The translations under genes and the position numbers were made by a program. 64,000 nt of DNA from Rhodococcus sp. P-2 (GTDB taxonomy: Bacteria; Actinomycetota; Actinomycetes; Mycobacteriales; Mycobacteriaceae). The DNA lies in the NCBI RefSeq assembly GCF_016598535.1, contig NZ_CP066779.1, positions 5,516,053-5,580,052 on the forward strand, given 5' to 3'. This document shows positions 3,088 through 59,557 of this stretch, piece after piece (positions within the stretch are counted from its first letter, which is position 1; every line of letters begins with the position of its first letter). Below the pieces are notes generated by a model. It did no database searches and was not told the DNA's origin. It saw only the letters and a list, made by a program, of their open reading frames with translations.

Positions 3088-4295
3088 GATCTCACCTCGT
3101 TGATGAGCTCACGCATCGACGTCGCTGCCTTGCGGGATGTGAAGCGATTCGAGTAGTGGCGATATGCGGATTTACGTATCGCCGATCGGTCGTCCGCTCC
3201 GAAGATCCGGTCGAGGGCCTCGCGAATCGACGATTCATCCAAGGAATGGAGAGGCGTTCCGCCAGGTCCGACGATGTCCGCGAGAGCGCCGCTGGTTGCG
3301 TAGATGACCGGGGTGCCAACCGACATCGATTCGATCGCAACGCGTCCGAACGGCTCTGCCCATTGAGACGGCACCACGGACGCCGCACTGTCGCGGAGTA
3401 TCTCGATCACATCTTCGTGTGAAGTGAATCCGGCCAACGTGACGTTGTCGCGAGCTGCGCTGATGCTGGAGATCTCGGCGTACTGCGGTCCGTCACCGAG
3501 CACTGTGAGCGAGGGACTTCCCTCGTCCTGTGGCCAGTTGCGCACCAGGTCCAGGACACCCTTCTCCGGTGTCAGTCGGCTGACGCAGACAACCGAATCA
3601 GTGCTCCGAAACGCGGGTTTGTTTTCTTCGAATCCGAAGTTCGGACGAACCACGACGCGATCGGAATCGATCAGTGGTCCCTCGATCAGCCGCGCTGTCA
3701 TCGCGCTCGTTGCCACGAACCTGTGCTGCTTGCATCCCAAGACGCTCAGCTTGACTGCCGCAGCACTCAAGTAGCAGACAAGGCTCTGAAGTCGGCTGTT
3801 GCCGTAGCATCCGTTGCGGACACAGCTCGAGAAGTAGTTCGTGGAACCACATTCGGTGCACGTGCCATCCCCGCGCAACTTGGCTGACGGCGTGGCCAGG
3901 CGGTAGTTCCGAACCGCCTGCAGCGTAGGAATTCCGGCGGCTCGCGCAGCCACGAGCAACGAGGCCGAAAACGCAGGCCAGAGATTGTTGACGTAGACGA
4001 CGTCGGGCCGCTCCGAACGGATAATACGAAACGCGTCGACAAGTACCCGCGGGCTGAATACTGCTGTGACTGCCGCCCACGGTCCCCCGGAGATCTCGGA
4101 GTTGTCCGTGGTGCACCGAACCGTCTCGTATCCGATCGATTCGAGGAGCTTGGATTCGTTCGCAAAGCTCTGCTCCTCGCCACCCGGGTTCCGATAGATC
4201 GCATGGAACATCAAGGCTTTCGGCTGCGTGGATCCACCGGCGGGCGTTAGGGTCACATCAGGCTTCGAACGCGCTACATCGAACGTCTTGTACAT
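3084..4295 (-). CDS. Glycosyltransferase family 4 with four-cysteine insert
   Basis: 403 residues when started at 4295. This ATG follows a GAGGAGGT ribosome site and lies 1 nt after the stop of the polymerase gene; an upstream in-frame start at 4361 would overlap that gene and lacks such a site. The C-terminal half has VVCVSRLTPEKGVLDLV, TVLGDGP and a PSQWAEPFGRVAIESMSVG motif (E-x7-E), typical of GT4. Residues about 143-166 hold four Cys (C146, C149, C158, C163), a putative metal-binding insert known from some EPS-locus GT4 proteins. Cytoplasmic, adding a sugar to the block A repeat unit. Confidence 0.9.
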   Translation of the reverse strand: MYKTFDVARSKPDVTLTPAGGSTQPKALMFHAIYRNPGGEEQSFANESKLLESIGYETVRCTTDNSEISGGPWAAVTAVFSPRVLVDAFRIIRSERPDVVYVNNLWPAFSASLLVAARAAGIPTLQAVRNYRLATPSAKLRGDGTCTECGSTNYFSSCVRNGCYGNSRLQSLVCYLSAAAVKLSVLGCKQHRFVATSAMTARLIEGPLIDSDRVVVRPNFGFEENKPAFRSTDSVVCVSRLTPEKGVLDLVRNWPQDEGSPSLTVLGDGPQYAEISSISAARDNVTLAGFTSHEDVIEILRDSAASVVPSQWAEPFGRVAIESMSVGTPVIYATSGALADIVGPGGTPLHSLDESSIREALDRIFGADDRSAIRKSAYRHYSNRFTSRKAATSMRELINEVRS

Positions 4296-44198: not shown

Positions 44199-44744
44199 AT
44201 GTCCGAGTTCACCGTACCGGGACTGAGCAGCGCAGACGGTTCGTCCGTCGCCGATATTCTGCAGGAACGCCTCAGCGCCTACAACGATCTTCACCTCACG
44301 CTCAAGCACGTTCACTGGAACGTCGTGGGCCCCAACTTCATCGGCGTCCACGAGATGATCGACCCCCAGGTGGAGTTGGTCCGCGGCTACGCCGACGATG
44401 TGGCCGAACGTATCGCGGCACTGGGTAACTCGCCCAAGGGCACCGCGGGAGCGATCGAGCGGGACCGCACGTGGGACGACTACTCCGTCGGCCGAGACGA
44501 CGCCCGCGCGCACCTCGCTGCGCTCGACCTCGTTTACACCGGGGTCATCACCGACAGTCGCACAGCAATTGACAGCGTCGGCAAAATCGATCCGATCACC
44601 GAAGACATGTTGATCGGCCAGACGGCACAGTTGGAAAAGTTCCAGTGGTTCGTTCGTGCACACCTCGAGAACTCGGGTGGCAGCCTCGTACACGAAGGCG
44701 CGTCCACCGAGCAGGATGCCGCAGATGAGGCACGCCAGAGCTGA
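44199..44744 (+). CDS. dps: Dps-family DNA-binding ferritin-like protein
   Basis: 181 residues from the ATG at 44199 (GAGAGGAAAA upstream). The four-helix ferritin fold is evident: LQERLSAYNDLHLTLKHVHW, NVVGPNFIGVHEMIDPQVEL (inter-subunit ferroxidase His, Asp and Glu), YADDVAERIAALG and AQLEKFQWFVRAHL. Dps dodecamers store iron, use up hydrogen peroxide and coat DNA in stationary phase. The C-terminal tail is acidic rather than Lys-rich, so strong DNA binding is not assured. Followed by a 14-bp hairpin. Confidence 0.95.
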   Translation: MSEFTVPGLSSADGSSVADILQERLSAYNDLHLTLKHVHWNVVGPNFIGVHEMIDPQVELVRGYADDVAERIAALGNSPKGTAGAIERDRTWDDYSVGRDDARAHLAALDLVYTGVITDSRTAIDSVGKIDPITEDMLIGQTAQLEKFQWFVRAHLENSGGSLVHEGASTEQDAADEARQS

Positions 44745-46758: not shown

Positions 46759-47292
46759 ATGAATACTTCCGGGGTAGAGATGGCTGGCACGCATGGCCGG
46801 TACCGTTCCTTGCCTCGGTCCGCCGGAATTACGCCACATCTACCTACAGGAAGCCCCTTGATCCCTCTGTCGAGTCCGACCGAAGCCGAACTTACTCACG
46901 ACTCCATCGCCTCGCTCCGCGTCCGAGCGTCCTACTCCCAACTGCCGACTCTGCGCGGGATCACTCGCACTGTTGCCAACAACACCGGGTTGGATGTCGA
47001 CGGAACAGCCGATCTTGCTCTGGCGATGGACGAAGTCGCGAGCATCCTCATCGGCCATGCGATACCGTCCAGCGACTTGACCTGCCGATTCGAGACCTAC
47101 GGTCGCACACTGCGGATCGTCGTATCGGTGATTGCGCACTCCGAAATACCCGACAAGTCCCACAGCTTCGGATGGTTCGTTCTCGAAGCACTGGTCGACT
47201 CGGTCCGTTTGGAACAATCGGAAATCGACGCGGACGGTCACATCACCCTGACGATGACGCTTGAAAAGGGCTTGCTCCAGGAGCGTGCGTGA
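46759..47292 (+). CDS. RsbW/UsfX-like anti-sigma factor
   Basis: 177 residues; an ATG seven codons later is an alternative start. The GHKL/HATPase-like fold is visible: LRVRASYSQLPTLRGITRTV, DVDGTADLALAMDEVASILI (N-box region) and SFGWFVLEALVDSVRLEQ. The ATP-lid motifs are degenerate, as in mycobacterial UsfX. It holds SigF inactive and is released by STAS partners; two STAS proteins are in this window. It overlaps the sigma gene by GTGA. Confidence 0.85.
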   Translation: MNTSGVEMAGTHGRYRSLPRSAGITPHLPTGSPLIPLSSPTEAELTHDSIASLRVRASYSQLPTLRGITRTVANNTGLDVDGTADLALAMDEVASILIGHAIPSSDLTCRFETYGRTLRIVVSVIAHSEIPDKSHSFGWFVLEALVDSVRLEQSEIDADGHITLTMTLEKGLLQERA

Positions 47293-48071
47293 CCGCTGTC
47301 CCACCGGACAAGAAGGACCAGTACGAACTAGCTGTCGAACTGTTCGTCTCGATGGCTTCGCTTCCGCCTGACGATCCGACCCGAGAAAAGATCACCAACT
47401 CGATCATCGAACTGTGCCTACCACTGGCCACCCACGTCGCTCGCCGCTACCAGGGGCGCGGCCAGCCATTCGAGGACTTGGAACAAGTTGCGCGCGTGGG
47501 TTTGGTACAGGCTGTGCAGCGATTCGACGTAGACAAAGGGTCAGATTTCCTGTCGTTCGCAGTCCCCACCGTAATGGGTGAGGTACGCAAGCACTTTCGC
47601 GATCACGGCTGGTCCGTGCGCGTGCCTCGCAGCCTTCAGGAACGACACCTTGCCCTCAACCGGGCGCTCACGTCGTTGTCGCAGACGCTCGGCCGTGCAC
47701 CGACAGTCGCGGAACTCGCCAAGGAGCTCGACATAGAGCCGGACGAGGTCGAACAGGGGTTGACCGCCGGAAATTCGTATCGAACGACCCCGCTCGACAC
47801 GGCGTCCGCCGGCGACGGGAGCGGACTGACCCTGATCGATACTTTGGGACAGTACGACGAAGCGATCAGTCGGATCGACAATCACGAAACCCTGCGGCCC
47901 GCGCTCCTGGCACTACCGGAGCGCGAGCGCACGATCGTCGTTCTCAGATTCTTCGGACATCTCACCCAATCCCAGATCGCCGACAAGGTCGGCATCTCTC
48001 AGATGCATGTATCGAGAATCCTCACTCAGACTCTGAAGCAGCTACGGACCGAGATGGGTGAAATCTTCTGA
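47289..48071 (+). CDS. sigF: SigF/SigB-family general stress sigma factor
   Basis: 260 residues from a GTG overlapping the anti-sigma stop. Region 2: IIELCLPLATHVARRYQGRG, FEDLEQVARVGLVQAVQRFD, FLSFAVPTVMGEVRKHFRDH and WSVRVPRSLQE. Region 3 has LGRAPTVAELAKELDIEPDE; region 4 has LPERERTIVVLRFFGHLTQS and IADKVGISQMHVSRILTQTL. It directs stationary-phase and envelope-stress transcription in this group. It probably reads several stress genes around it, though their promoters are not all evident. Confidence 0.95.
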   Translation: MTAVPPDKKDQYELAVELFVSMASLPPDDPTREKITNSIIELCLPLATHVARRYQGRGQPFEDLEQVARVGLVQAVQRFDVDKGSDFLSFAVPTVMGEVRKHFRDHGWSVRVPRSLQERHLALNRALTSLSQTLGRAPTVAELAKELDIEPDEVEQGLTAGNSYRTTPLDTASAGDGSGLTLIDTLGQYDEAISRIDNHETLRPALLALPERERTIVVLRFFGHLTQSQIADKVGISQMHVSRILTQTLKQLRTEMGEIF

Positions 48072-48336: not shown

Positions 48337-48650
48337 CTGAATCCCTTCGTCAGGTGACGCTGATCCCCCACCATACCGAAGTGTCTGTCCAAAAACATTG
48401 CACCGCTTAATGTTCGACTACAAGCCTGGACCGATCCAAGCCCTCGAGCTACACTGAGCGGTACCGAGGTTGAGAATACAGCCGGGGCTGAAGCCGCTGG
48501 CGCTCGGTTCGCATCAAGGCTCTGGATCAGGTCAAATTTTCCTGCGTACATCCATTGGGCTCGATGCTTTCCACACCTGGACTCTTTCACTTTCCGTGCC
48601 GTCAGGTCGGTCGTCAGCCTTTCGATGAAAGCACACAGACCGGATCTGCC
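48337..48650. other. Divergent intergenic region
   Basis: 314 nt between the 48088 gene (minus) and the STAS gene (plus). Only short imperfect inverted repeats (around 48480-48510) were seen. No gene. Confidence 0.45.
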
Positions 48651-49088
48651 ATGAATCTGAATGATCTCGACCATGCACCGATCGATTTCGTCGATCCCTC
48701 AACACAATTGGGGCCGATCGTGGACACACAAGGCTTCGCAGCCTGGCGGATAACACCCTCGACAGTCCTGATCCAGGTCGACGTCGACCTCGACAAACTG
48801 TCCGCGCCAGAACTACGAGAACTTCTCGACTCGTACGCAGCGGAGTGGTCGCGCGTCGTTCTCGACCTGTCCAATTCACTGTTCGTCGGTGCGGTCTGCC
48901 TCGAACTGTTCGCCGAACTGAACTCCCGTTCGCGAGCCCACGATTTCCAGTGGTCCGTCATCGGGTCACACCCGCTTCGACGCTTGCTCCGGGCCGCACG
49001 GGCAGAAGAGGAATTTCCGGTCACCAACTCTGTCGAGGGAGCCATGCGCGCACTCGACGAAGCCGAGCAGTCGCTCGAAGCCTCCTGA
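48651..49088 (+). CDS. Divergent STAS-domain protein
   Basis: 145 residues from the ATG at 48651. The STAS order is kept: VLIQVDVDLDKLSAPELREL, WSRVVLDLSNSLFVGAVCLE and FQWSVIGSHPLRRLLRAARA. The loop that carries the phospho-Ser in anti-anti-sigma factors reads F-V-G-A-V-C, with no Ser or Thr. It may be a constitutive partner of the RsbW-like protein. Monocistronic, ribosome site weak. Confidence 0.75.
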   Translation: MNLNDLDHAPIDFVDPSTQLGPIVDTQGFAAWRITPSTVLIQVDVDLDKLSAPELRELLDSYAAEWSRVVLDLSNSLFVGAVCLELFAELNSRSRAHDFQWSVIGSHPLRRLLRAARAEEEFPVTNSVEGAMRALDEAEQSLEAS

Positions 49089-49174
49089 CGCCACGCCTGC
49101 ACCGGCGTCGAGCGCCGCACGCTCGCAGCGACTAAGGTTCGTCGGGCTGTCCGACGAGCTGAGAGAGACCGAGA

Positions 49175-50152
49175 ATGACAATCGCCAAGCGCCTCGATGC
49201 CTTGCAACAGAAGCATCCGGCACTGGGGTTCCCGATAGCGGTCCTCTACAAGTTCCTCGACGATCAAGGTGTTTATCTCGCCGCGCTGATCGCTTACTAC
49301 GGTTTCGTCTCGCTCTTTCCTCTTCTTCTGTTGCTCTCGACCATTCTCGGCTTCGTGCTCTCGGGCAACCCCGAGCTTCAGCAACAGATCTTGGACTCCG
49401 CGCTGCATCAGTTTCCGGTAATCGGTGACGACCTGGGCAATGCGCAACAGATCGGCGGCGGTGTCACAGGGCTGGTGATCGGAATCGTCGGTGGTCTCTA
49501 CGGTGGCCTCGGCGTCGCTCTGGCTTGCCAGAATGCAATGAACACGGTGTGGTCGGTGCCCCGAAACATGCGACCGGATCCCATCCGCGGTCGTCTTCAA
49601 GGGTTACTGCTCCTCGGCACGATCGGTCTCGCGATCGTGGGGACCACCGCTGTCTCCAACATCGGCGGTGCGCTTCATCTGGGCGGTTCGTTCAGCTTCC
49701 TGCTGACCCTTGCGGTAGTCGTATTGAATGCGGGCATCTTCATCGTCGCTTTCCGGCTCACCTGCGCCCGCCCGCTCTCGGTGGCCGATGTGGCACCCGG
49801 AGCGATCGCCGCTGCTGTTCTCTGGCAAGCACTTCAGTCCTTCGGTGCCCTTTACGTGACATCCGTGGTGCGAGGCGCCTCCACCACCAATGGCGTCTTC
49901 GCCATCGTTCTGGGTTTGTTGGCCTTCTTGTTCCTCGCTGCCGCCTCGATCGTCATGTGCGCGGAAATCAACGTCGTGCGAGTCGACAAACTCCATCCGC
50001 GGGCGTTGTTGGCTCCGTTCACCGACAACACCGAACTCATCGAAGGCGATCGGCGCACCTTCGCCGATCAAGCAAAGGCGCAACGCGCGGTTCCTCACGA
50101 GAACATCCATGTGACGTTCGACGGGCGCACCAAACCCGACGATTCGGACTGA
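49175..50152 (+). CDS. YihY/BrkB-family membrane protein
   Basis: 325 residues with six helices: YLAALIAYYGFVSLFPLLLL, VTGLVIGIVGGLYGGLGVAL, LLLGTIGLAIVGTTAVSNIG and three more to about residue 270, then a charged cytoplasmic tail. AYYGFVSLFPLLLL and VARNAMNTVW-type sequence (here ACQNAMNTVWSVPRNMRPD) are YihY family marks. Once annotated as ribonuclease BN, the family is now regarded as a membrane protein of unclear transport role. Confidence 0.9.
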   Translation: MTIAKRLDALQQKHPALGFPIAVLYKFLDDQGVYLAALIAYYGFVSLFPLLLLLSTILGFVLSGNPELQQQILDSALHQFPVIGDDLGNAQQIGGGVTGLVIGIVGGLYGGLGVALACQNAMNTVWSVPRNMRPDPIRGRLQGLLLLGTIGLAIVGTTAVSNIGGALHLGGSFSFLLTLAVVVLNAGIFIVAFRLTCARPLSVADVAPGAIAAAVLWQALQSFGALYVTSVVRGASTTNGVFAIVLGLLAFLFLAAASIVMCAEINVVRVDKLHPRALLAPFTDNTELIEGDRRTFADQAKAQRAVPHENIHVTFDGRTKPDDSD

Positions 50153-50468
50153 TCTCGACCCCGATCGAGTTGGGTATTTGGTCCCCTCCTGGGTATCGGG
50201 GTGGCATTCTGCGCCGCGAATCCAGATTTAACACAAGTGTTGTCATTTCGCGCTGCATCGAAGCGACGAATACATCACAGCAGGTAAACGCGCATAGTTG
50301 AACAATCACCTGCTTCCGACGCGGTCCCGGAACGGGACAAAGCCGTCAAATACTGCAACTCGCCATGCATGTAATTGGAGACAGAAAAAGAAGAGCATGG
50401 CAGGATCAGGTGTGAGACCGGACTCTCGATGGGAGGGCTCGGCTCGATGGATCCAGGAGAATTTGGTT
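50153..50468 (+). promoter_or_regulatory. cspA promoter and leader region
   Basis: 316 nt before the cold-shock gene. It holds two GGGTAT motifs (50172-50177, 50191-50196) that resemble SigF -10 elements; GTTG, not GTTT, lies 18 nt before the second. A small palindrome AACACAAGTGTT is at 50230-50241. A long untranslated leader is usual for cold-shock genes. No gene was seen here. Confidence 0.4.
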
Positions 50469-50672
50469 ATGGCTCAGGGCAGTGTCAAGTGGTTCAACGG
50501 TGAAAAGGGCTTCGGATTCATCGAGCAGGAAGGTGGCGGACCGGATGTGTTCGTTCACTACTCGGAGATCCAGGGCAGCGGCTACAAGTCCCTCGACGAG
50601 GGCCAGAAGGTCGAGTTCGAGATCGGACAGGGCCAGAAGGGCCCCCAGGCTCAGAACGTTCGCGCCATCTGA
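50469..50672 (+). CDS. cspA: CspA-family cold-shock protein
   Basis: 67 residues from the ATG at 50469 (AGGAG 9 nt upstream); the frame is open upstream but not conserved. [20 protein letters not shown] carries RNP1 (KGFGFI), and DVFVHYSEI carries RNP2 (VFVHY). OB-fold RNA chaperone that binds single-stranded RNA and DNA. Followed by a strong terminator. Confidence 0.97.
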
Positions 50673-50699
50673 GTTCGATCCCAGTCTGACTTCAGACTG

Positions 50700-50744
50700 A
50701 AAAGGCTGGACGCTGCACCGCATGGTGCCGGCATCCAGCCTTTT
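50700..50744 (+). terminator. Strong terminator after cspA
   Basis: AAAAGGCTGGA and TCCAGCCTTTT form an 11-bp stem with an inner GCACC/GGTGC hairpin, then CTT. The arms give U- or A-tracts on both strands, so it can also serve the convergent CDGSH gene. Confidence 0.85.
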
Positions 50745-50803
50745 CTTGGTTTCCGAGTCTTCCTGGTCTACCTGGCCTTCTTGGACTCTGAGTCTGGTAC
50801 CGG

Positions 50804-51043
50804 CTAGGTCGCTCGCGCTCGCTTCTTCTTGTGTGAGCTGTCGCAGAACGGCGCGATACCGGTTCGTCCGCATCGACACAAAGCAACTGTGGAGCGCTTG
50901 TTCTCGATCGGAGTGCCGTCGTCACGGAGCAACTCGAAGTCACCACGCACCAGCAGCGGGCCGTCCGAGCAGGCGGTTATGGTGGTCTTGTTACCGGGAA
51001 CACTCGGTGTTTCGGCAGATGACGATTCGGGAAACGCGGTCAT
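50804..51043 (-). CDS. CDGSH-type iron-sulfur protein
   Basis: 79 residues. The C-terminal part CRCGRTGIAPFCDSSH has C56, C58, C67 and H71, the 3Cys-1His ligands of a [2Fe-2S] CDGSH cluster (here CDSSH). The N-terminal half is a short beta extension (PLLVRGDFELL). Redox or cluster-transfer role. Its ATG directly abuts the ATG of the next gene on the other strand (CATATG). Confidence 0.9.
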   Translation of the reverse strand: MTAFPESSSAETPSVPGNKTTITACSDGPLLVRGDFELLRDDGTPIENKRSTVALCRCGRTGIAPFCDSSHKKKRARAT

Positions 51044-52093
51044 ATGTCCTCTTCACTTCTCGATTCGGCCACTGGCGTGCCCACTTCCATGCCTGTTCCA
51101 CAGGCGCGCGGCCCACTGAGCGCCACTCTTGTTTCCATTCTGCGCTCCTCGGCCGATCCGAGGGAGCTTACGGCTGCCACCGACGCCTACGAGGATGCAC
51201 GGTCCATCGACCCCACCTACGACATTCTTCGAGACGACGACGCTCAGTTGACCCTGACGCTCCTCTACGAGCTTCATTTGCAGGGAATCGAGAACGTCTC
51301 GGACGAGTGGGAGTGGAATCCGGATCTGCTCGCCGTGCGCTCTCGGCTCGAAGCGCGCTTCGAGTCCGGCATCGCGGAACTTGTGGGAGAGGTTCCGTCC
51401 TCCGGCGACGTGGTGGCCGACCTGTGGGCGATGACCGCTCCCAGCGCCGGCCCCGGTCTTGCGTCCTTCATGGCGAAGGACGCCACGGTCGATCAGTTCG
51501 CGGAGGTGCTGATTCACCGTTCGCTCAATCAGCTCCGTGAAGCGGATGTGCACACCCTCGGAATTTCGCGGCTCTCCGGTGCCGTCAAGGCGGCACTCGT
51601 CGAAGTGCAGAGCGACGAGTACGGAGGCGGCCGCGCCGAGCGTATGCATTCGCGTCTTTTTGCCGACACCATGCGGGCTGTCGGTCTGTCGGACCGCTAC
51701 GGCCATTACATCGATGCTGTTCCCGCGGTCACCTTGGCGTCGTTGAATGCTCTCTCGCTCTTCGGTTTTCATCGTCGACATCTCGGAACGCTGGTCGGGC
51801 ACCTGTGCGCCGTCGAGACCACGTCGGCGCTGCCGAGCAAGCGCTACAGTGCCGGACTGCGCCGACTCGGATTCGGTTCGGACGCGACACTGTTCTACGA
51901 CGAGCACGTGGAAGCAGATTCGGTTCACGAACAGATCGCCGTTCGCGAACTTGCCGGCGGTCTTGCTTCTTCGCAGCCGCACCGCACTGATGACATCTTG
52001 TTCGGCGCCGCAGCGTGCCTCGCGTTCGACGACCTTCTCGGCGATCACCTCACATCGAGCTGGGAGAAGGGCGAGACTTCGTTGCGCGAATGA
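51044..52093 (+). CDS. Haem-oxygenase-fold iron-containing redox enzyme
   Basis: 349 residues from the ATG at 51044; a start at 51089 (MPVPQARGPLSATLVSILRS) is possible and would fit the conserved part better. Helical motifs with metal-ligand residues: LTLLYELHLQGIENVSDEWE, VQSDEYGGGRAERMHSRLFA (E-x3-H type) and FYDEHVEADSVHEQIAVREL. This is the pattern of TenA/HO-like diiron proteins of actinobacteria. Substrate unknown. The divergent CDGSH protein may be its electron or cluster partner. Confidence 0.83.
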   Translation: MSSSLLDSATGVPTSMPVPQARGPLSATLVSILRSSADPRELTAATDAYEDARSIDPTYDILRDDDAQLTLTLLYELHLQGIENVSDEWEWNPDLLAVRSRLEARFESGIAELVGEVPSSGDVVADLWAMTAPSAGPGLASFMAKDATVDQFAEVLIHRSLNQLREADVHTLGISRLSGAVKAALVEVQSDEYGGGRAERMHSRLFADTMRAVGLSDRYGHYIDAVPAVTLASLNALSLFGFHRRHLGTLVGHLCAVETTSALPSKRYSAGLRRLGFGSDATLFYDEHVEADSVHEQIAVRELAGGLASSQPHRTDDILFGAAACLAFDDLLGDHLTSSWEKGETSLRE

Positions 52094-52721
52094 TCACGAG
52101 TTGTTCGATTTCCTGACCTGTGGTGATCAGCCCTCGCGCCTCCAGCATGGTGCGCCGCTCGCGCATCACGGGCCCGAAGGGAATGTACTTCCGGGCCGAA
52201 ATCTCCACGGCCATACCGTGTTCCTCGAGTATGGCCTCGGTCTTGTCGACCCCACACAGTACCGACTGCAGGAGAAGAAGTGTGCCGCCGGGGACGAGCA
52301 CTTCGTGAACCGTGGCCGCGATCCTGTCGATCAGGGCACGACCGTCCTTGCCTGCGTCCCAAGCCCGTTCGATTCCAGCGGTAGGGAGATCATCTGCAAG
52401 CGCAGGGACGTACGGCGGGTTGGAGATCACCAGATCGAAGAGTTCCCCGTGCACCGCGCCGGTGAGGTCCCCACGACGGGAGTCGATCAAGGTTCCGTTG
52501 AGGATCCCGTTGAGACGAGCGTTGGCACACGCTCGGCGAGATATGTCGACCGCGACGACGTGACCTGCGCCGGCCGCGGATGCCGCGACGGCAAGGGCGC
52601 CGGTCCCCGTGCACAGATCCAGCACCCGACTGCGAGCGGTGAGGTGCTCGAACAGCAGCGCATCCGCCAGTAACGACGTGTCGTGTTGCGGTGGATACAC
52701 ACCAGGTAGACGCAGGATCAT
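52050..52721 (-). CDS. MTQ2/HemK-like SAM-dependent methyltransferase
   Basis: 223 residues; the ATG at 52721 has GAGGAG at better spacing than one codon earlier. Class I SAM fold: VLDLCTGTGALAVAASAAGA (SAM loop), VVAVDISRRACANARLNGIL and FDLVISNPPYVPALADDLP with the NPPY motif that marks methylation of Gln or Asn amide nitrogen. It could modify a release factor or another protein. The last 44 nt overlap tail-to-tail with the haem-oxygenase-fold gene. Confidence 0.9.
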   Translation of the reverse strand: MILRLPGVYPPQHDTSLLADALLFEHLTARSRVLDLCTGTGALAVAASAAGAGHVVAVDISRRACANARLNGILNGTLIDSRRGDLTGAVHGELFDLVISNPPYVPALADDLPTAGIERAWDAGKDGRALIDRIAATVHEVLVPGGTLLLLQSVLCGVDKTEAILEEHGMAVEISARKYIPFGPVMRERRTMLEARGLITTGQEIEQLVIIRATKSRPSPSSM

Positions 52722-52857
52722 CATCGGCTCCTCTTTTTCAGGCGACATCGCACATCGCTGCGTGCGGCTACCCAGGAACCTCGGATTTCATGCAACATCG
52801 AAGCATCAACCGCCTGGAACGGTTACATCGTCGCAGTTTGCGGAGTAGACCTGAGTC

Positions 52858-53625
52858 ATGACAGGCAATGCGGACACTCCACAGGGAGCCGCGGCGTTTG
52901 CTTCCGCAGCAGATTCGCTCGACACTCTCGCCGAAGCGATCGCCGGACTCCGGTCCACTCTGAACACGGACGAGCATCTCGACTCCATGCTCCAACGTCT
53001 GGCCGAGACTGCTGTCAAAGCCCTGCCGGATGCCGATGCTGTCAGCGTGACGGTGCTGTCCGCCGATGGCCCACGAACTGCCGCATCCACCGCGGACTAC
53101 CTTTCCGAAATAGACGACGCCCAGCACTCTGCCGATCGTGGTCCGTGCGTTGACGCCGCGCGCACTGTGTCGTCGGTACGGGCAAAGGTGGGTGATCACG
53201 AGGACACATGGCCGGAATTCACCGCCGAGGCCCGCAAACAAGGCGTCCGGTCCTACTTGTCCGTGCCGATCACCATGGGAGAAGGCAGCACCGAACTACT
53301 CGGCGCTTTCAACGTCTACGGATTCGCGTCGACAGAGTTCAAGCCCTTCGACGAGGAGTTGATGAAATTGTTCACCGCCGGTGCGGGCGCAGCGATCGCA
53401 GATTCACGACGCTGGCGTCAGGCGCACGAACACATCGAACAACTGCACTGCGCCATGGAATCTCGGGCCGAGATCGAACAGGCCAAGGGCGTCCTGATCG
53501 CCGTCCACGGTATCGACGCCGACGAAGCATTCAGCCGTCTCGTGCAGCAATCGCAGCACACCAACGTGAAACTGCACGAGGTTGCCCGGATGCTCGTCGA
53601 TTCGGTGCGCCACCGCCGGTTCTGA
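52858..53625 (+). CDS. GAF-ANTAR RNA-binding regulator
   Basis: 255 residues. GAF domain at about 35-180 (LDSMLQRLAETAVKALPDAD, SADRGPCVDAARTVSSVRAK, VRSYLSVPITMG) followed by ANTAR at about 195-250 (MESRAEIEQAKGVLIAVHGI, LVQQSQHTNVKLHEVARMLV). This is a common actinobacterial architecture for a ligand-controlled antiterminator. The GAF ligand is not predictable. Second ANTAR protein in the window, unlike the first in its sensor. Confidence 0.93.
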   Translation: MTGNADTPQGAAAFASAADSLDTLAEAIAGLRSTLNTDEHLDSMLQRLAETAVKALPDADAVSVTVLSADGPRTAASTADYLSEIDDAQHSADRGPCVDAARTVSSVRAKVGDHEDTWPEFTAEARKQGVRSYLSVPITMGEGSTELLGAFNVYGFASTEFKPFDEELMKLFTAGAGAAIADSRRWRQAHEHIEQLHCAMESRAEIEQAKGVLIAVHGIDADEAFSRLVQQSQHTNVKLHEVARMLVDSVRHRRF

Positions 53626-53826
53626 AAGAACGCCGGTGACAAAACCCCGTTTTGTACCCCGAAGGTGCAGTTCCCAAACGCATCCAGAGATGTTTCACCG
53701 AAACAGTTTTCGACCTGCGTAACTGCTGGCGGTCGCGCGGCGGCACTCGTCCGAAATGTGGTTATCTGTTGAGAACCGGGACGAAAGAAGACCCGACCGT
53801 ACCAGGGTGAGGAAAGGATCGTCACT

Positions 53827-54531
53827 GTGCCAATCGACCAGGTTCTTGTCGTAGTTCCCGCCCACAACGAAGCCGAAGACCTTCCCAACTGCCTTCGCGC
53901 ACTCGCAACAGCGGCATCGGCTTGCGTTGTCCCCGTCCGACTTGTTGCCGTCCTCGACAACTGTTCGGACGGAACCGCGGGGGTCGTCCCCGACGGAGTG
54001 GAAGTACTGCGCGTCGAGCATCAGAACGTCGGACGTTCGCGAGCGACGGGCTTCTCCGCGTTCGGCTCAGATTTGGGCGCCTCAGCGTGGTTCACCACCA
54101 CCGATGCCGATTCGGTGGTCGGCCCTACGTGGATTGCGCGCCAATTGGAATATGCGCGTACAGCGGATGTCGTCGCGGGAACCGTGCGCATCGCCGACTG
54201 GGAAGGTCATCCACACTCCGTCCGCGAACGATACGAACGTATGTATCACGAGCATCCGTACGGTCGACACGGTCACGTCCACGGTGCCAACCTCGGTGTC
54301 CGCGCCGACATGTACTGGAGCGTCGGAGGATTCTCCGATCTCGAAGAAGACGAGGACGTCGATCTCGTCCGGCGGTTGAGCGAAGCTGGTGCCTGTATCG
54401 CATGGGCCGAAGACATTGCGGTCACCACGTCTGCACGTCTCGACGGCCGAACTCCGGGCGGTTTTGCCGGACATATCCGTAACCTGGGTGGTACGACCGC
54501 CGATAACGAAGAAGCGGAGCTGGCACGATGA
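53827..54531 (+). CDS. Glycosyltransferase family 2 (first gene of NodS/PIG-L operon)
   Basis: 234 residues from a GTG (AAAGGA upstream). Compact GT-A enzyme: VLVVVPAHNEAEDLPNCLRA, VLDNCSDGTAG, WFTTTDADSVVGPTWIARQL (DxD) and GHVHGANLGVRADMYWSVGG, then LEEDEDVDLVRRLSEAG. No membrane segments, so it acts on a soluble or membrane-edge acceptor. Coupled by ATGA to the acyl-CoA-dehydrogenase-like gene. Product unknown. Confidence 0.9.
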   Translation: MPIDQVLVVVPAHNEAEDLPNCLRALATAASACVVPVRLVAVLDNCSDGTAGVVPDGVEVLRVEHQNVGRSRATGFSAFGSDLGASAWFTTTDADSVVGPTWIARQLEYARTADVVAGTVRIADWEGHPHSVRERYERMYHEHPYGRHGHVHGANLGVRADMYWSVGGFSDLEEDEDVDLVRRLSEAGACIAWAEDIAVTTSARLDGRTPGGFAGHIRNLGGTTADNEEAELAR

Positions 54532-55466
54532 AACGACTACACACACTCCTGGACGCAGGTGGACTGTACTTGCCGTTGCCCGGCGGCGGCGCGACGGCCG
54601 CACGATGGACTTCCCTGGCAGAACTCACTCGAGAGAACGTGGTCCTCGGCCGAATGGCTGAGGCCCACACCGATGCAGTCGCGATACTCACCGAACTCGA
54701 CGGACCCGATCCCGAACCGGGTCAGCTGTGGGGAGTGTGGGCAGCCGAGCCACCCGAACCAGTGGTGAATGCATCTGAGCACGTGGGAATCTGGACGCTC
54801 ACCGGTCGCAAGTTGTGGTGTTCGGGCGCCAACACCTGCACGCATGCACTGATCACCGCGTTGGTCGACGGTGTCCCCTCGCTCTTCGCGGTCGAGCTCG
54901 GGCTACCTGGGGTACATCCCGTTCCCGATTCGTGGAAGGCCGTTGGCATGGCCGAAAGCGACTCCAGCGCAGTCGATTTCGACATGGTTCCGGCAATACC
55001 GGTCGGGACGGCAGGCGACTACCTGAGCCGGCCGGGGTTCTGGCACGGCGCGATAGGAGTGGCCGCATGCTGGTACGGCGGTGCCTGCGGCGTCGCAGAT
55101 CCGTTGTACGACAAGGCCGCAAGCAGCGAGGATCCCTATGTACTCGCGCACCTCGGTGCGGTCGACGCGGCGTTGGCCGCGGCCCGCAACGCGCTCGCAG
55201 TCGCGGCGGCGGAGATCGACGCCGACCCTTTCGACGAAAATGCCGAGGCCATGCAACGGGCACTGCGTGTGCGGGCAATCGTCGAGCGCGCCGCCACCGA
55301 GACCCTGGATCGGGTGGGACGCGCTCTCGGGGCTGCGCCGCTCTGCATGGACGCCGAGCATGCCGCCCGCGTCGCCGACCTCACCGTCTACTTGCGGCAG
55401 AGCCACGCCGAGAAGGATCTCGCAGAACTGGGCCGGATTGCGGCCAAGGGGAAACGGCCGTGGTGA
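54528..55466 (+). CDS. Acyl-CoA dehydrogenase-like flavoprotein
   Basis: 312 residues, shorter than the usual 380 of acyl-CoA dehydrogenases, with the N-terminal helical domain reduced. The middle beta region has LTGRKLWCSGANTCTHALIT (FAD contact) and the C-terminal helices have LGAVDAALAAARNALAVAAA and ATETLDRVGRALGAAPLCMD. The catalytic Glu could not be placed, so it may work on an acyl or amino-sugar substrate other than acyl-CoA. Overlaps both neighbours (ATGA, GTGA). Confidence 0.82.
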   Translation: MKRLHTLLDAGGLYLPLPGGGATAARWTSLAELTRENVVLGRMAEAHTDAVAILTELDGPDPEPGQLWGVWAAEPPEPVVNASEHVGIWTLTGRKLWCSGANTCTHALITALVDGVPSLFAVELGLPGVHPVPDSWKAVGMAESDSSAVDFDMVPAIPVGTAGDYLSRPGFWHGAIGVAACWYGGACGVADPLYDKAASSEDPYVLAHLGAVDAALAAARNALAVAAAEIDADPFDENAEAMQRALRVRAIVERAATETLDRVGRALGAAPLCMDAEHAARVADLTVYLRQSHAEKDLAELGRIAAKGKRPW

Positions 55467-56218
55467 ACTCGAAACTGTTCGCGCAGAAGCCCGTCGACGA
55501 CGGTGGCACCCCCGAATCGACGTGGCGGGAGTGGGGACGCAGGTTTCCGGAACTGGACCTGAGCGGGTGCTCGCGATTGATCGTCGTCGCACCTCATCCT
55601 GACGACGAAATCCTCGGCCTGGGTGGAACCGCACTCCTGGCAACACTTTCCGGAATCAATGTCCACGTGGTGTCCGTCACCGACGGCGGCGCTTCACATC
55701 CCGACTCACCGACGGTGACTCAGCCCGAGATGGAACAACTTCGACGGTCCGAGTCGGATCGAGCGGCGCGTGTGCTCGGGATTCCCGCGCCGGTTCGATT
55801 GAGCATCCCGGACGGGAAGATCGGCGAGAACCGGCGAGAGTTGACCGACCGCCTCAGATCGATTCTCGGTGATTCCTCGGCCGATACCTGGTGCGCCTCG
55901 ACGTGGCGAGGGGACGGCCACCCGGATCATGAAGCCACCGGTGACGCTGCGGCAAGGGCGTGCGCGGATACCGGAGCACGATTGATCGAGTACCCCATCT
56001 GGGCGTGGCATTGGGCCGCGCCGGATCATGCGGCAGTCCCGTGGGACAGAGCAAGAAGAGTGACCTTGCCCTCCGACGTGCAGGCTGCAAAATCTGCTGC
56101 CACCAATGAGTTCACTTCACAGATCGCCCCGCTTTCCGATCACCCCGCGGATGCGCCCATCCTCCCCCGACACGCGATGGAACGACTACTGCGACCGTAC
56201 GAGACGGTGTTCGTATGA
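55463..56218 (+). CDS. PIG-L (GlcNAc-PI de-N-acetylase) family deacetylase
   Basis: 251 residues from a GTG overlapping the previous stop. Zinc-binding motif LIVVAPHPDDEILGLGG (H45, D47-D48, E49) and RGDGHPDHEATGDAA (H153, H156) are the PIG-L/MshB signature. These enzymes remove the acetyl group from an N-acetylglucosamine-type sugar. MshB proper makes mycothiol; this copy sits in a different operon and probably deacetylates the product of the adjacent GT2. Confidence 0.92.
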   Translation: MNSKLFAQKPVDDGGTPESTWREWGRRFPELDLSGCSRLIVVAPHPDDEILGLGGTALLATLSGINVHVVSVTDGGASHPDSPTVTQPEMEQLRRSESDRAARVLGIPAPVRLSIPDGKIGENRRELTDRLRSILGDSSADTWCASTWRGDGHPDHEATGDAAARACADTGARLIEYPIWAWHWAAPDHAAVPWDRARRVTLPSDVQAAKSAATNEFTSQIAPLSDHPADAPILPRHAMERLLRPYETVFV

Positions 56219-56829
56219 GCGATCGTGAACTGCCCGTGGATTACTTCGCCAAGATGTATGCCGCACAGTCCGACCCATGGGATTTCGAATCCCGCTGGTA
56301 CGAGCAGCGAAAGTACGCGCTCAGTGTCGCCATGCTCCCGAAACCTCGATACCGCCGCGCGTTCGAACCTGGGTGCTCGATCGGGGTTCTCACCGAGAAG
56401 TTGGCCGAGCGCTGCGACAGCGTTCTCGCCACCGACATCGTCCCCGTCGCACTGGAGAATGCTCGCGCGCGGCTTTCCGGTCGTGACGCCGAATTTCGTC
56501 TCTGGGCTTTGGGTGACGACTGGCCCGACGAGACCTTCGACCTCGTCGTCGTCAGCGAGGTCGGCTACTACCTCACCTTCGAAAAGCTCACCGAGGCAAT
56601 GCTGCACGTCGTCGAGCACCTCGAGCCTGGCGGAACGCTGCTGTGCGCCCATTGGCGTCACGTCGTACCGGAGTATCCGCAAAACGGTGACGCCGTTCAT
56701 TCGGCTGTGCGCCAGACGCCGGGGTTGGCGCAGTTCGCGTCGTACCAGGACGAGGACGTGCTGATCGATGTCTTCGTGAAAGGTCCACCGTCACCACCAT
56801 CGGTAGCTCGTTCCGAAGGTTTGATCTAG
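56215..56829 (+). CDS. NodS-like SAM-dependent methyltransferase
   Basis: 204 residues, ATGA overlap with the deacetylase. It begins LPVDYFAKMYAAQSDPWDFE, SRWYEQRKYALSVAMLP, then FEPGCSIGVLTEKLAERCDS (SAM loop) and FDLVVVSEVGYYLTFEKLTE, the NodS family pattern. NodS N-methylates the free amine of a deacetylated chitooligosaccharide. The operon order, deacetylase then methyltransferase, fits the same chemistry. Ends at a strong terminator. Confidence 0.9.
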   Translation: MSDRELPVDYFAKMYAAQSDPWDFESRWYEQRKYALSVAMLPKPRYRRAFEPGCSIGVLTEKLAERCDSVLATDIVPVALENARARLSGRDAEFRLWALGDDWPDETFDLVVVSEVGYYLTFEKLTEAMLHVVEHLEPGGTLLCAHWRHVVPEYPQNGDAVHSAVRQTPGLAQFASYQDEDVLIDVFVKGPPSPPSVARSEGLI

Positions 56830-56836
56830 AACCCCT

Positions 56837-56876
56837 GTGCGCGGTTGAGGAGTGTGGGGACTCCTCAACCGCGCAC
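56837..56876. terminator. Strong bidirectional hairpin
   Basis: GTGCGCGGTTGAGGAGT pairs perfectly with ACTCCTCAACCGCGCAC (17 bp, 6-nt loop), between the convergent ends of the methyltransferase (56829) and tatA-like (56881) genes. Confidence 0.85.
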
Positions 56877-56880
56877 GGGG

Positions 56881-57057
56881 TCAGTCTCGCTTCTCCAACG
56901 CGAGGTCCGTATCCGAGTGCAGTTCACCGACTTCGGACTTCAGGATCCGCATCGACCGGCCGAGGCCGCGGGCCGCGTCGGGCAGCTTCTTCGAACCGAA
57001 CAGCACCACGAGCACTACTGCGACGATCGCCCAGTGGGTCGGGCTCAGCGCGCCCAT
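56881..57057 (-). CDS. TatA/E-like Sec-independent translocase subunit
   Basis: 58 residues from the ATG at 57057, overlapping the RidA gene stop by 1 nt. Short N-terminus, one helix ([20 protein letters not shown]), the F-G-x-K-K-L-P hinge of TatA, then an amphipathic helix ([16 protein letters not shown]) and an acidic tail. It forms or assists the Tat pore for folded proteins. Shorter than the usual TatA (80-100 residues), so it may be an accessory copy devoted to the Tat substrate two genes upstream. Confidence 0.92.
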
Positions 57058-57728
57058 CAGGCGGGTTCCTTGCCCTCGGGGTACACCGCATCGACCTCTA
57101 CCTCGACGAGCCAACCGGCAACCGGCAGTCCGGCAACCTCGAGCGCGAAGCGGGTGGGGCGGGCGCTGTTGCGCTCGATCGGAGCGATCGGCTCGGCAGT
57201 GCCCATCGGAACCAGCTCCGTATCACCGGTGTCGAGATTGGTATTGGCGAAGAACTGGCGGTACGCGCGATTCCATCCTGTGTAGTCGGCCTTGTCCGAC
57301 CCCGGCGCGTTGTCCAGGAAGACGCGCATCGTCACGACGTCTTCGAGACTCAATCCCTGGGCTTCGAGGTTGTCGCGGATCTTCTTGAGTACGTTGATGC
57401 CCTGCGCCTCGGTGACGGTGACCCCGGCAGGCAGAACTCCACCGGAGAACTGGCCGTCGATGTACGACTCCGGCGAACCTTCCGGCGCCGCCTTGTTTCC
57501 TGCCGACGGGCCGATGCCGCTGGTCTTGTAGATCGCGGTGTCGCCGCCGATCGCGACACCCTGAGCGATCATCGGGTTGGCCTGCCCCGCTTCGAGAATC
57601 GATTTGGAGACGAACGAACTCGATGTGGTCTCGGCGTCCGCCTCGTCAGACGAGCAGGCAGTGGCGAACCCCAGTAGCGCGGTGGCGGCGAATGCCGCTG
57701 CAAGGACCTTGGTGCTGCGAGATTTCAT
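57057..57728 (-). CDS. RidA-family lipoprotein
   Basis: 223 residues from the ATG at 57728 (GGAGG upstream). A lipoprotein signal peptide ends in a lipobox FATAC (Cys about 26). The RidA/YjgF domain fills the rest: [60 protein letters not shown] and [20 protein letters not shown], with the Arg and Glu regions of the active site. RidA hydrolyses reactive enamines and imines. An exported form is unusual; it would treat the products of the adjacent amine oxidase outside the cell. Confidence 0.88.
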
Positions 57729-57766
57729 GATGTGACCTCCAGAAATGTGATGGAAAATGAAGCACG

Positions 57767-59557
<1,791 letters not shown>

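Follow-up and report, generated by a model that had tools for sequence, protein, structure and literature searches.

Several described systems contain steps that resemble those encoded by the locus studied here. NodB and NodS carry out de-N-acetylation and N-methylation of an amino sugar, whereas in the mycothiol and bacillithiol pathways (MshA-MshB and BshA-BshB) glycosyl transfer by a family 4 glycosyltransferase (GT4) is followed by PIG-L deacetylation to give a stress-related small molecule. The class D flavin monooxygenases DszC, TdsC and MsuC, and also KijD3 and DnmZ, which act on amino sugars, have the acyl-CoA dehydrogenase (ACAD) fold. Here we analysed a four-gene operon of Rhodococcus sp. 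P-2, at positions 53827-56829 of a 64,000-nucleotide stretch (hereafter the window; contig NZ_CP066779.1, 5,516,053 to 5,580,052), which encodes a family 2 glycosyltransferase (GT2), an ACAD-like flavoprotein, a PIG-L deacetylase and a NodS-like methyltransferase. Unlike the NodC-NodB-NodS system, it has a PIG-L enzyme instead of the NodB fold, a small soluble GT2 instead of NodC and an extra flavoprotein, and it lies in a stress context; unlike the thiol pathways, it uses a GT2 rather than a GT4, has no cysteine ligase and adds a methyltransferase and a flavoprotein. We propose, with a probability of about 0.5, that the set is a general-stress operon, shared widely among bacteria, whose product is a small, soluble amino-sugar metabolite that would be protective under stress. 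This proposal builds on the conservation of the set, its intact catalytic motifs, its stress context, its pattern of loss and the fold of the flavoprotein. The same four families form one operon beside blsA in Acinetobacter baumannii (ACICU_02432-02435), and its expression drops together with stress genes; in contrast to our locus, GT2 is last rather than first there, the proteins are 30-37% identical (locus L113), and the available portions of the two reports assign the operon no function (PMC5660220, PMC6240043).

All four genes are on the plus strand. They encode GT2 (234 amino acids, aa; 53827-54531), the ACAD-like flavoprotein (312 aa; 54528-55466), the PIG-L/LmbE zinc deacetylase (252 aa; 55460-56218, with an alternative GTG start at 55463) and the NodS-like class I S-adenosylmethionine (SAM) methyltransferase (204 aa; 56215-56829). 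In agreement with an earlier note on this DNA, which had described coupled genes ending at a hairpin, the junctions are in order ATGA, GTGA (using the GTG at 55463) and ATGA, and a perfect 17-bp inverted repeat with a 6-nt loop follows (56837-56876, strandless). From this arrangement we infer a single transcript in Rhodococcus sp. P-2, whose genome is one 6.34-Mb contig. Folded as RNA, the hairpin region forms a 21-pair stem (z = -6.7 against 200 shuffles). It has no T-run, and the terminator scan returned no terminator-like site at that place. The operon is on one side of it and a tatA-like gene (Pfam TatA_B_E), convergent with the operon, on the other, and it is a probable bidirectional terminator; given the missing T-run and the position between convergent genes, two-way termination is as likely as one-way.

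The same note had taken the four genes for one functional unit, and comparison of gene order across genomes bears this out. Scanning the GTDB species collection by pattern yielded 458 relatives of the ACAD-like protein, and among the best 80 of these (the named loci) all four genes were together in 67; 64 had the order of the window and three, from Geodermatophilaceae, had GT2 last. Within the genus, the ACAD gene was present in 21/28 genomes and the order GT2-ACAD-PIG-L-methyltransferase was kept in 20/20 loci read (own included), the closest named records by ACAD protein being Rhodococcus qingshengii and R. erythropolis (99%). Eleven other loci came from a phylum-wide genome sample; the four genes were visible in five of them, with 1.5-kb flanks limiting the view, and shuffled orders appeared (GT2-PIG-L-ACAD-methyltransferase in L122, ACAD-methyltransferase-PIG-L-GT2 in L121). 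Pairwise distances of the four proteins correlated at 0.82-0.92 across 75 complete loci, uncorrected for shared ancestry. Plasmid records with the set included Kitasatospora and Streptomyces within Actinomycetota, and further ones were added from Acinetobacter, Pandoraea, Cupriavidus, Comamonas, Paracoccus, Novosphingobium, Bradyrhizobium, Methylobacterium, Sulfitobacter, Deinococcus and Nostoc. The set reaches Actinomycetota, Pseudomonadota, Deinococcota and a Nostoc, with varying gene order. That it is not specific to actinobacteria, that it sits in a general-stress island and that its flavoprotein leans to the flavin monooxygenases all go beyond the earlier note. A phage origin was rejected, as no relative was present in viral_contigs; two 'phage' records that gave matches are Acinetobacter contigs of 232-306 kb, probably host DNA.

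The first two enzymes of the proposed chemistry show intact active sites. GT2 matched Pfam PF00535 (2.6e-13), with a GT-A type fold, intact DAD and ED motifs and a compact model (predicted local distance difference test, pLDDT, 91) that has no membrane domain; by E-value its best Foldseek match was the WrtF fucosyltransferase. It scored below the equivalogs for MftF and the TIGR04283 arsenosugar glycosyltransferase (43.3 and 43.5 bits against cut-offs of 280 and 182). The deacetylase scored 91.1 bits against the PIG-L Pfam family (cut-off 28.2, 1.1e-25), and its zinc motifs HPDDE and HPDH are intact in the window protein and in the 67 complete named loci. The closest solved relatives in a family profile search were diacetylchitobiose deacetylases (1.5e-22), followed by PH0499, TT1542, MshB and GlcNAc-malate deacetylase (GlcNAc, N-acetylglucosamine). 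Mycothiol or bacillithiol synthesis was rejected: the protein remained below the NCBIfam equivalogs MshB (19 against 224 bits), Mca (23.8 against 277), BshB1 (52.1 against 182.5) and BshB2 (46.8 against 195), and genes over the MshB and Mca cut-offs lie elsewhere in the same genome. All four proteins were in fact below every NCBIfam equivalog cut-off, and the view that no characterised pathway matches the set, already taken in the earlier note for actinobacterial pathways, stands.

The founder enzymes of the PIG-L family act on GlcNAc-phosphatidylinositol, which favours an alternative in which GT2 would decorate a lipid-linked acceptor that is afterwards deacetylated and methylated, as a surface glycan or glycolipid modification. 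Some neighbourhoods point the same way, since genes for a family-1 glycosyltransferase and a UDP-galactopyranose mutase (UDP, uridine diphosphate) come after the set in Deinococcus AJ005, and Novosphingobium has three further glycosyltransferase-type genes ahead of it. However, the conserved set includes no flippase, ligase or polymerase, and no membrane domain was found in the four proteins, whose maximum 19-aa hydropathy is 2.01 for GT2 (from residue 25), 1.66 for ACAD, 1.34 for PIG-L and 0.78 for the methyltransferase, compared with a membrane protein yardstick of 2.77. In the confident model the GT2 stretch folds into a helix and a strand of the core, which counts against a membrane domain. 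We consider surface modification unlikely, and the surface lipid named in the earlier note as a possible product is not supported.

The methyltransferase belongs to the NodS Pfam family PF05401 (58.5 bits against a gathering score of 24, 1.1e-15) and carries the motifs DPW..WYE and ExGCS; the closest structures to its profile were 4isc (3.7e-60) and NodS 3ofj (8.8e-32), followed by phosphoethanolamine N-methyltransferases. A tree of 32 methyltransferases, its root undetermined, placed four nodS rows on a long branch inside a 98/96-supported group of 13, the other rows of which are alphaproteobacterial, Deinococcus and Nostoc methyltransferases, nearly all from the four-gene set. This placement is suggestive only, and would mean that rhizobial NodS may have been recruited from the methyltransferase family of the set. 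The same grouping would also fit a Nod-factor-like chito-oligosaccharide signal, made by the NodC-NodB-NodS logic that the earlier note had seen here. Of that logic, the deacetylation and N-methylation steps are plausible and the NodC-like step is not supported: a compact 234-aa GT2 model is not a NodC-type membrane-embedded processive synthase (a distinction made without aligning NodC), and the set has no NodA-type gene. Moreover, the methyltransferase reached 67.2 bits against a cut-off of 300 for the NodS equivalog NF041650, and the context is one of stress rather than signalling, so that we regard such a signal as highly improbable.

The second protein had been described in the earlier note as a shortened ACAD-like flavoprotein, and this was confirmed. 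It scored 31.3 bits against the ACAD middle domain, under the Pfam gathering score of 33.3, and showed no N- or C-terminal ACAD domain at E 0.01. Its model (pLDDT 93) consists of helical, barrel and four-helix domains, with Z about 30 to many ACAD-fold entries, and lacks the N-terminal helices (~36-45 residues) present in bacterial ACAD-fold proteins, whose aligned chains begin at about residue 36-69. Compared with the class D monooxygenases it is short (312 aa against 395-453) and 16-21% identical in the structure searches, yet it leans to the DszC/MsuC type. A broad profile ranked 5z8t/5gj7, TdsC, MsuC and DszC first (DszC 1.8e-13; KijD3 5e-11), an actinobacterial profile ranked DszC first, and MsuC/DszC entries took Foldseek ranks 1-5. 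The protein has the (F/W)CSG and W..xGM motifs in common with DszC and TdsC, its GRKLWCSGA aligning with GTKHFCSGA (DszC), GTKAFCSGS (TdsC) and GKKSFCSGA (MsuC). Counted along the printed alignment, its Ser99 falls opposite DszC Ser163, which we take to lie near the flavin. Membership in the DszC equivalog itself is far off (20 bits against a cut-off of 850). It could instead be a ColB1-like dehydrogenase of an acyl or amino-acyl group on a sugar or carrier protein, given that VIA-align placed ColB1 level with TdsC (Z 30.7) and that ColB1 was among the best matches of the actinobacterial profile (1.1e-7); but the set has no carrier protein or acyl-CoA enzyme and sequence profiles rank DszC or other monooxygenase-type entries first, and we find this quite unlikely.

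In Deinococcus, the ACAD has an additional N-terminal domain of 400 aa (in seven plasmid records with an ACAD annotation, D. radiodurans included), and the resulting fusions with a domain like glycoside hydrolase family 1 (GH1) are at L007:6591-8954, L184:3036-5285 and L186:5929-8268. The D. radiophilus domain weakly matched GH1 beta-glucosidases (22 bits, 6.6e-5, far under the cut-off), the AJ005 extension gave no GH1 match, and NE and ETG, presumably the GH1 catalytic motifs, are kept between these two extensions when aligned. Some Deinococcus and Azospirillum plasmids carry relatives of the domain with a beta-glucosidase annotation. The fusion ties the flavoprotein to carbohydrate. In Sinorhizobium meliloti (L185), a related domain, without the four-gene set, is fused to a GT4-type domain and lies beside glf and glycosyltransferases, which adds to the case for surface modification. 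An unknown Novosphingobium protein showed no similarity to the Deinococcus extension.

The window is a general-stress island, and stress genes recur beside the set elsewhere. We searched loci of at least 16 kb with 19 stress-protein queries, using 17-kb stretches from nine ACAD-bearing genomes as controls, and found a match in 21/62 loci compared with 1/40 control stretches (Fisher p 1.2e-4), p values here being optimistic because the loci are related and the controls unmatched by genus. From the matches we also chose 12 annotated plasmid regions that carry the ACAD gene (L004-L012, L178, L184, L186); ten had one or more of catalase, Ku/LigD, otsA/otsB or treZ, CsbD and Dps/ferritin, and L184 and L186 held none of these. 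In Sulfitobacter the set adjoins catalase. Within the window, the plus strand upstream of the operon encodes a Dps-type ferritin (44199-44744), an RsbW-like ATPase (46759-47292; Pfam HATPase_c_2 25.4 bits, just below the cut-off of 27.4) directly followed by a SigB/SigF-type sigma factor (47289-48071), a STAS protein (48648-49088), BrkB/YihY (within 48648-52093), a cold-shock protein (50466-50672) and an iron-containing redox enzyme (PF14518; 51044-52093). A PF14518 protein lies near the set in an Acinetobacter plasmid too.

Published expression data come from A. baumannii, where ACICU_02432-02435, annotated as a glycosyltransferase, a SAM methyltransferase, LmbE and an ACAD-related protein and marked as one operon, were down 31- to 62-fold in two colistin-dependent mutants (PMC5660220, Table 2). 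The genes otsA/otsB, a catalase, ACICU_02431 and ACICU_02436 fall with them (PMC5660220), and a second report places the same neighbours beside blsA (PMC6240043). Read directly, the order in A. baumannii L113 is DUF2171-ACAD-PIG-L-methyltransferase-GT2-BOF-BLUF. The L113 record (NZ_CP077849.1) is filed as plasmid pDETAB15; at 3.66 Mb, it is probably the A. baumannii chromosome. In the text available to us, the BlsA paper PMC8987720 has nothing on the set, and the glycosyltransferases 3505-3509 of Sphingomonas melonis are described as EcfG-dependent without being identifiable there as this set (PMC6599016). We found no function assignment for the set in the literature, subscription journals being mostly outside coverage.

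The joint fall of otsAB and the operon in A. baumannii (PMC5660220) is compatible with a trehalose-linked compatible solute, that is, an amino-sugar derivative of trehalose or another osmolyte with an osmotic or desiccation role rather than a redox one. In line with this, otsA and otsB flank the set on a Comamonas plasmid, otsAB is close to it in an Acinetobacter ursingii plasmid, and treZ is found in a Paracoccus plasmid. In the 80 named actinobacterial loci, however, two proteobacterial OtsA/OtsB queries gave no match at E 1e-6, whereas catalase was matched in 11/62 tested loci, and we hold this solute to be rather unlikely.

The pattern of partial loss in mycobacteria is consistent with joint action of the four genes. 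Motif positions of PIG-L and ACAD were invariant in the 67 complete named loci and changed in 8/13 incomplete ones. In three mycobacterial loci without GT2 and methyltransferase (L048, L053, L110), PIG-L has HHDHDY where the complete loci have HDDHDH, with His for the first Asp of HPDD and Tyr for the last His of HPDH. ACAD Ser99 is changed to Ala or Pro in L065, L076, L083, L085 and L092, and in L083 the DAD motif of GT2 is broken as well. Site change was associated with incompleteness overall (Fisher p 4e-8) and within mycobacteria (8/12 against 0/17, p 1e-4). On the ACAD tree we counted seven changes to incompleteness, with site change concordant in 5-6 of 7 independent pairs and opposed in none.

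Several observations weigh against the general-stress proposal. The loss pattern amounts to seven losses (sign test p 0.03-0.06) at sites chosen after the alignment had been inspected, and is for this reason support and no proof that the four genes act jointly. Thirteen of the 80 named loci are incomplete (12 mycobacterial and one contig end), and phylum-wide the ACAD protein was found at E 1e-20 in only 12/197 genomes, own included; within the 1.5-kb flanks, L124 has ACAD alone and L125 is without PIG-L. On plasmids, the Cupriavidus PIG-L gene is 3 kb off on the opposite strand and the Pandoraea GT2 match is divided between two frames. In D. radiodurans a helicase gene separates PIG-L from the methyltransferase, and no glycosyltransferase is annotated in the stretch read. 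The methyltransferase occurs without nearby ACAD/PIG-L genes in L179 (by tblastn), in L182 and L183 (by annotation) and in four nodS loci. Stress enrichment is mostly mycobacterial (15/24 loci compared with 6/38 others); p is 0.054 for the non-mycobacterial loci alone against mostly Rhodococcus-type controls, and leaving out the topoisomerase IB query gives 14/62 (p 0.004). The expression changes belong to colistin-dependent mutants with very broad change, and L113 was equated with the ACICU tags by annotation and gene order only. Regarding the flavoprotein, the true ACAD 1rx0 (7.9e-13) comes close behind DszC in the profile search, the top match 5z8t/5gj7 has no CSGA motif, and structural alignment does not split monooxygenases from dehydrogenases, human short-chain acyl-CoA dehydrogenase scoring 30.2 beside the 30.7 of ColB1 and TdsC. 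Structure matches of GT2 are diffuse, the best E-value coming at a template modeling score (TM) of 0.65.

Upstream of the operon lies the strandless inverted repeat TGTTTCACCGAAACA (arms TGTTTC and GAAACA around ACC; 53691-53705). Its segment TGTTTCAC is unchanged in the three near relatives that were aligned, and the first half of the repeat in R. globerulus. The repeat is a possible operator, although its single occurrence does not exceed the chance expectation of 1.6 (two mismatches allowed). A scan of 53500-57100 found no sigma-70-type promoter. The pattern GTTT-N14-18-GGGTA, which we take to be the SigF-type consensus, had three matches in the window (chance mean 0.6); one of them, at 53655-53679, was ruled out as operon promoter, as it is on the minus strand and does not belong to the operon. 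Also upstream of the operon, the PF14518 enzyme is followed by a convergent small methyltransferase (PF05175; together 51044-52748), and each of the two was matched near the operon in 6/80 named loci. Downstream, a convergent minus-strand group (56884-59518) comprises the tatA-like gene, a RidA-family protein whose start looks lipoprotein-like and a flavin amine oxidase whose start looks twin-arginine-like (both by eye), possibly an exported amine-oxidising unit.

Under the general-stress proposal, the donor, acceptor, order of steps, product and protective role are predicted from the enzymes and their context. GT2 would move an N-acetylhexosamine, with UDP-GlcNAc as the probable donor, onto a small acceptor, the PIG-L enzyme would take off the acetyl group, and the NodS-like enzyme would methylate the freed amine. 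Oxidation of the product would then fall to the ACAD-fold flavoprotein, acting more probably as a monooxygenase of the DszC/KijD3 type than as an acyl-CoA dehydrogenase, and this product would build up in stress with catalase, Dps and trehalose and shield the cell. A more specific version, which we regard as a long shot, is that an N-methyl, N-oxygenated glucosaminyl glycoside (a hydroxylamine or nitrone sugar) serves as radical scavenger in Actinomycetota, Pseudomonadota, Deinococcota and at least one cyanobacterium, and that rhizobial NodS was recruited from its methyltransferase. If true, such a sugar would be a class of small-molecule stress protectant beside mycothiol and bacillithiol. 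The chemistry predicted from the enzymes is narrow enough to be sought in laboratory strains through comparative metabolomics. The set occurs in survivors of drying and radiation (Acinetobacter, Deinococcus) and in non-tuberculous mycobacteria, and the persistence of this four-enzyme set across several phyla, with its recurrence in general-stress islands, suggests a stress metabolite not yet described.

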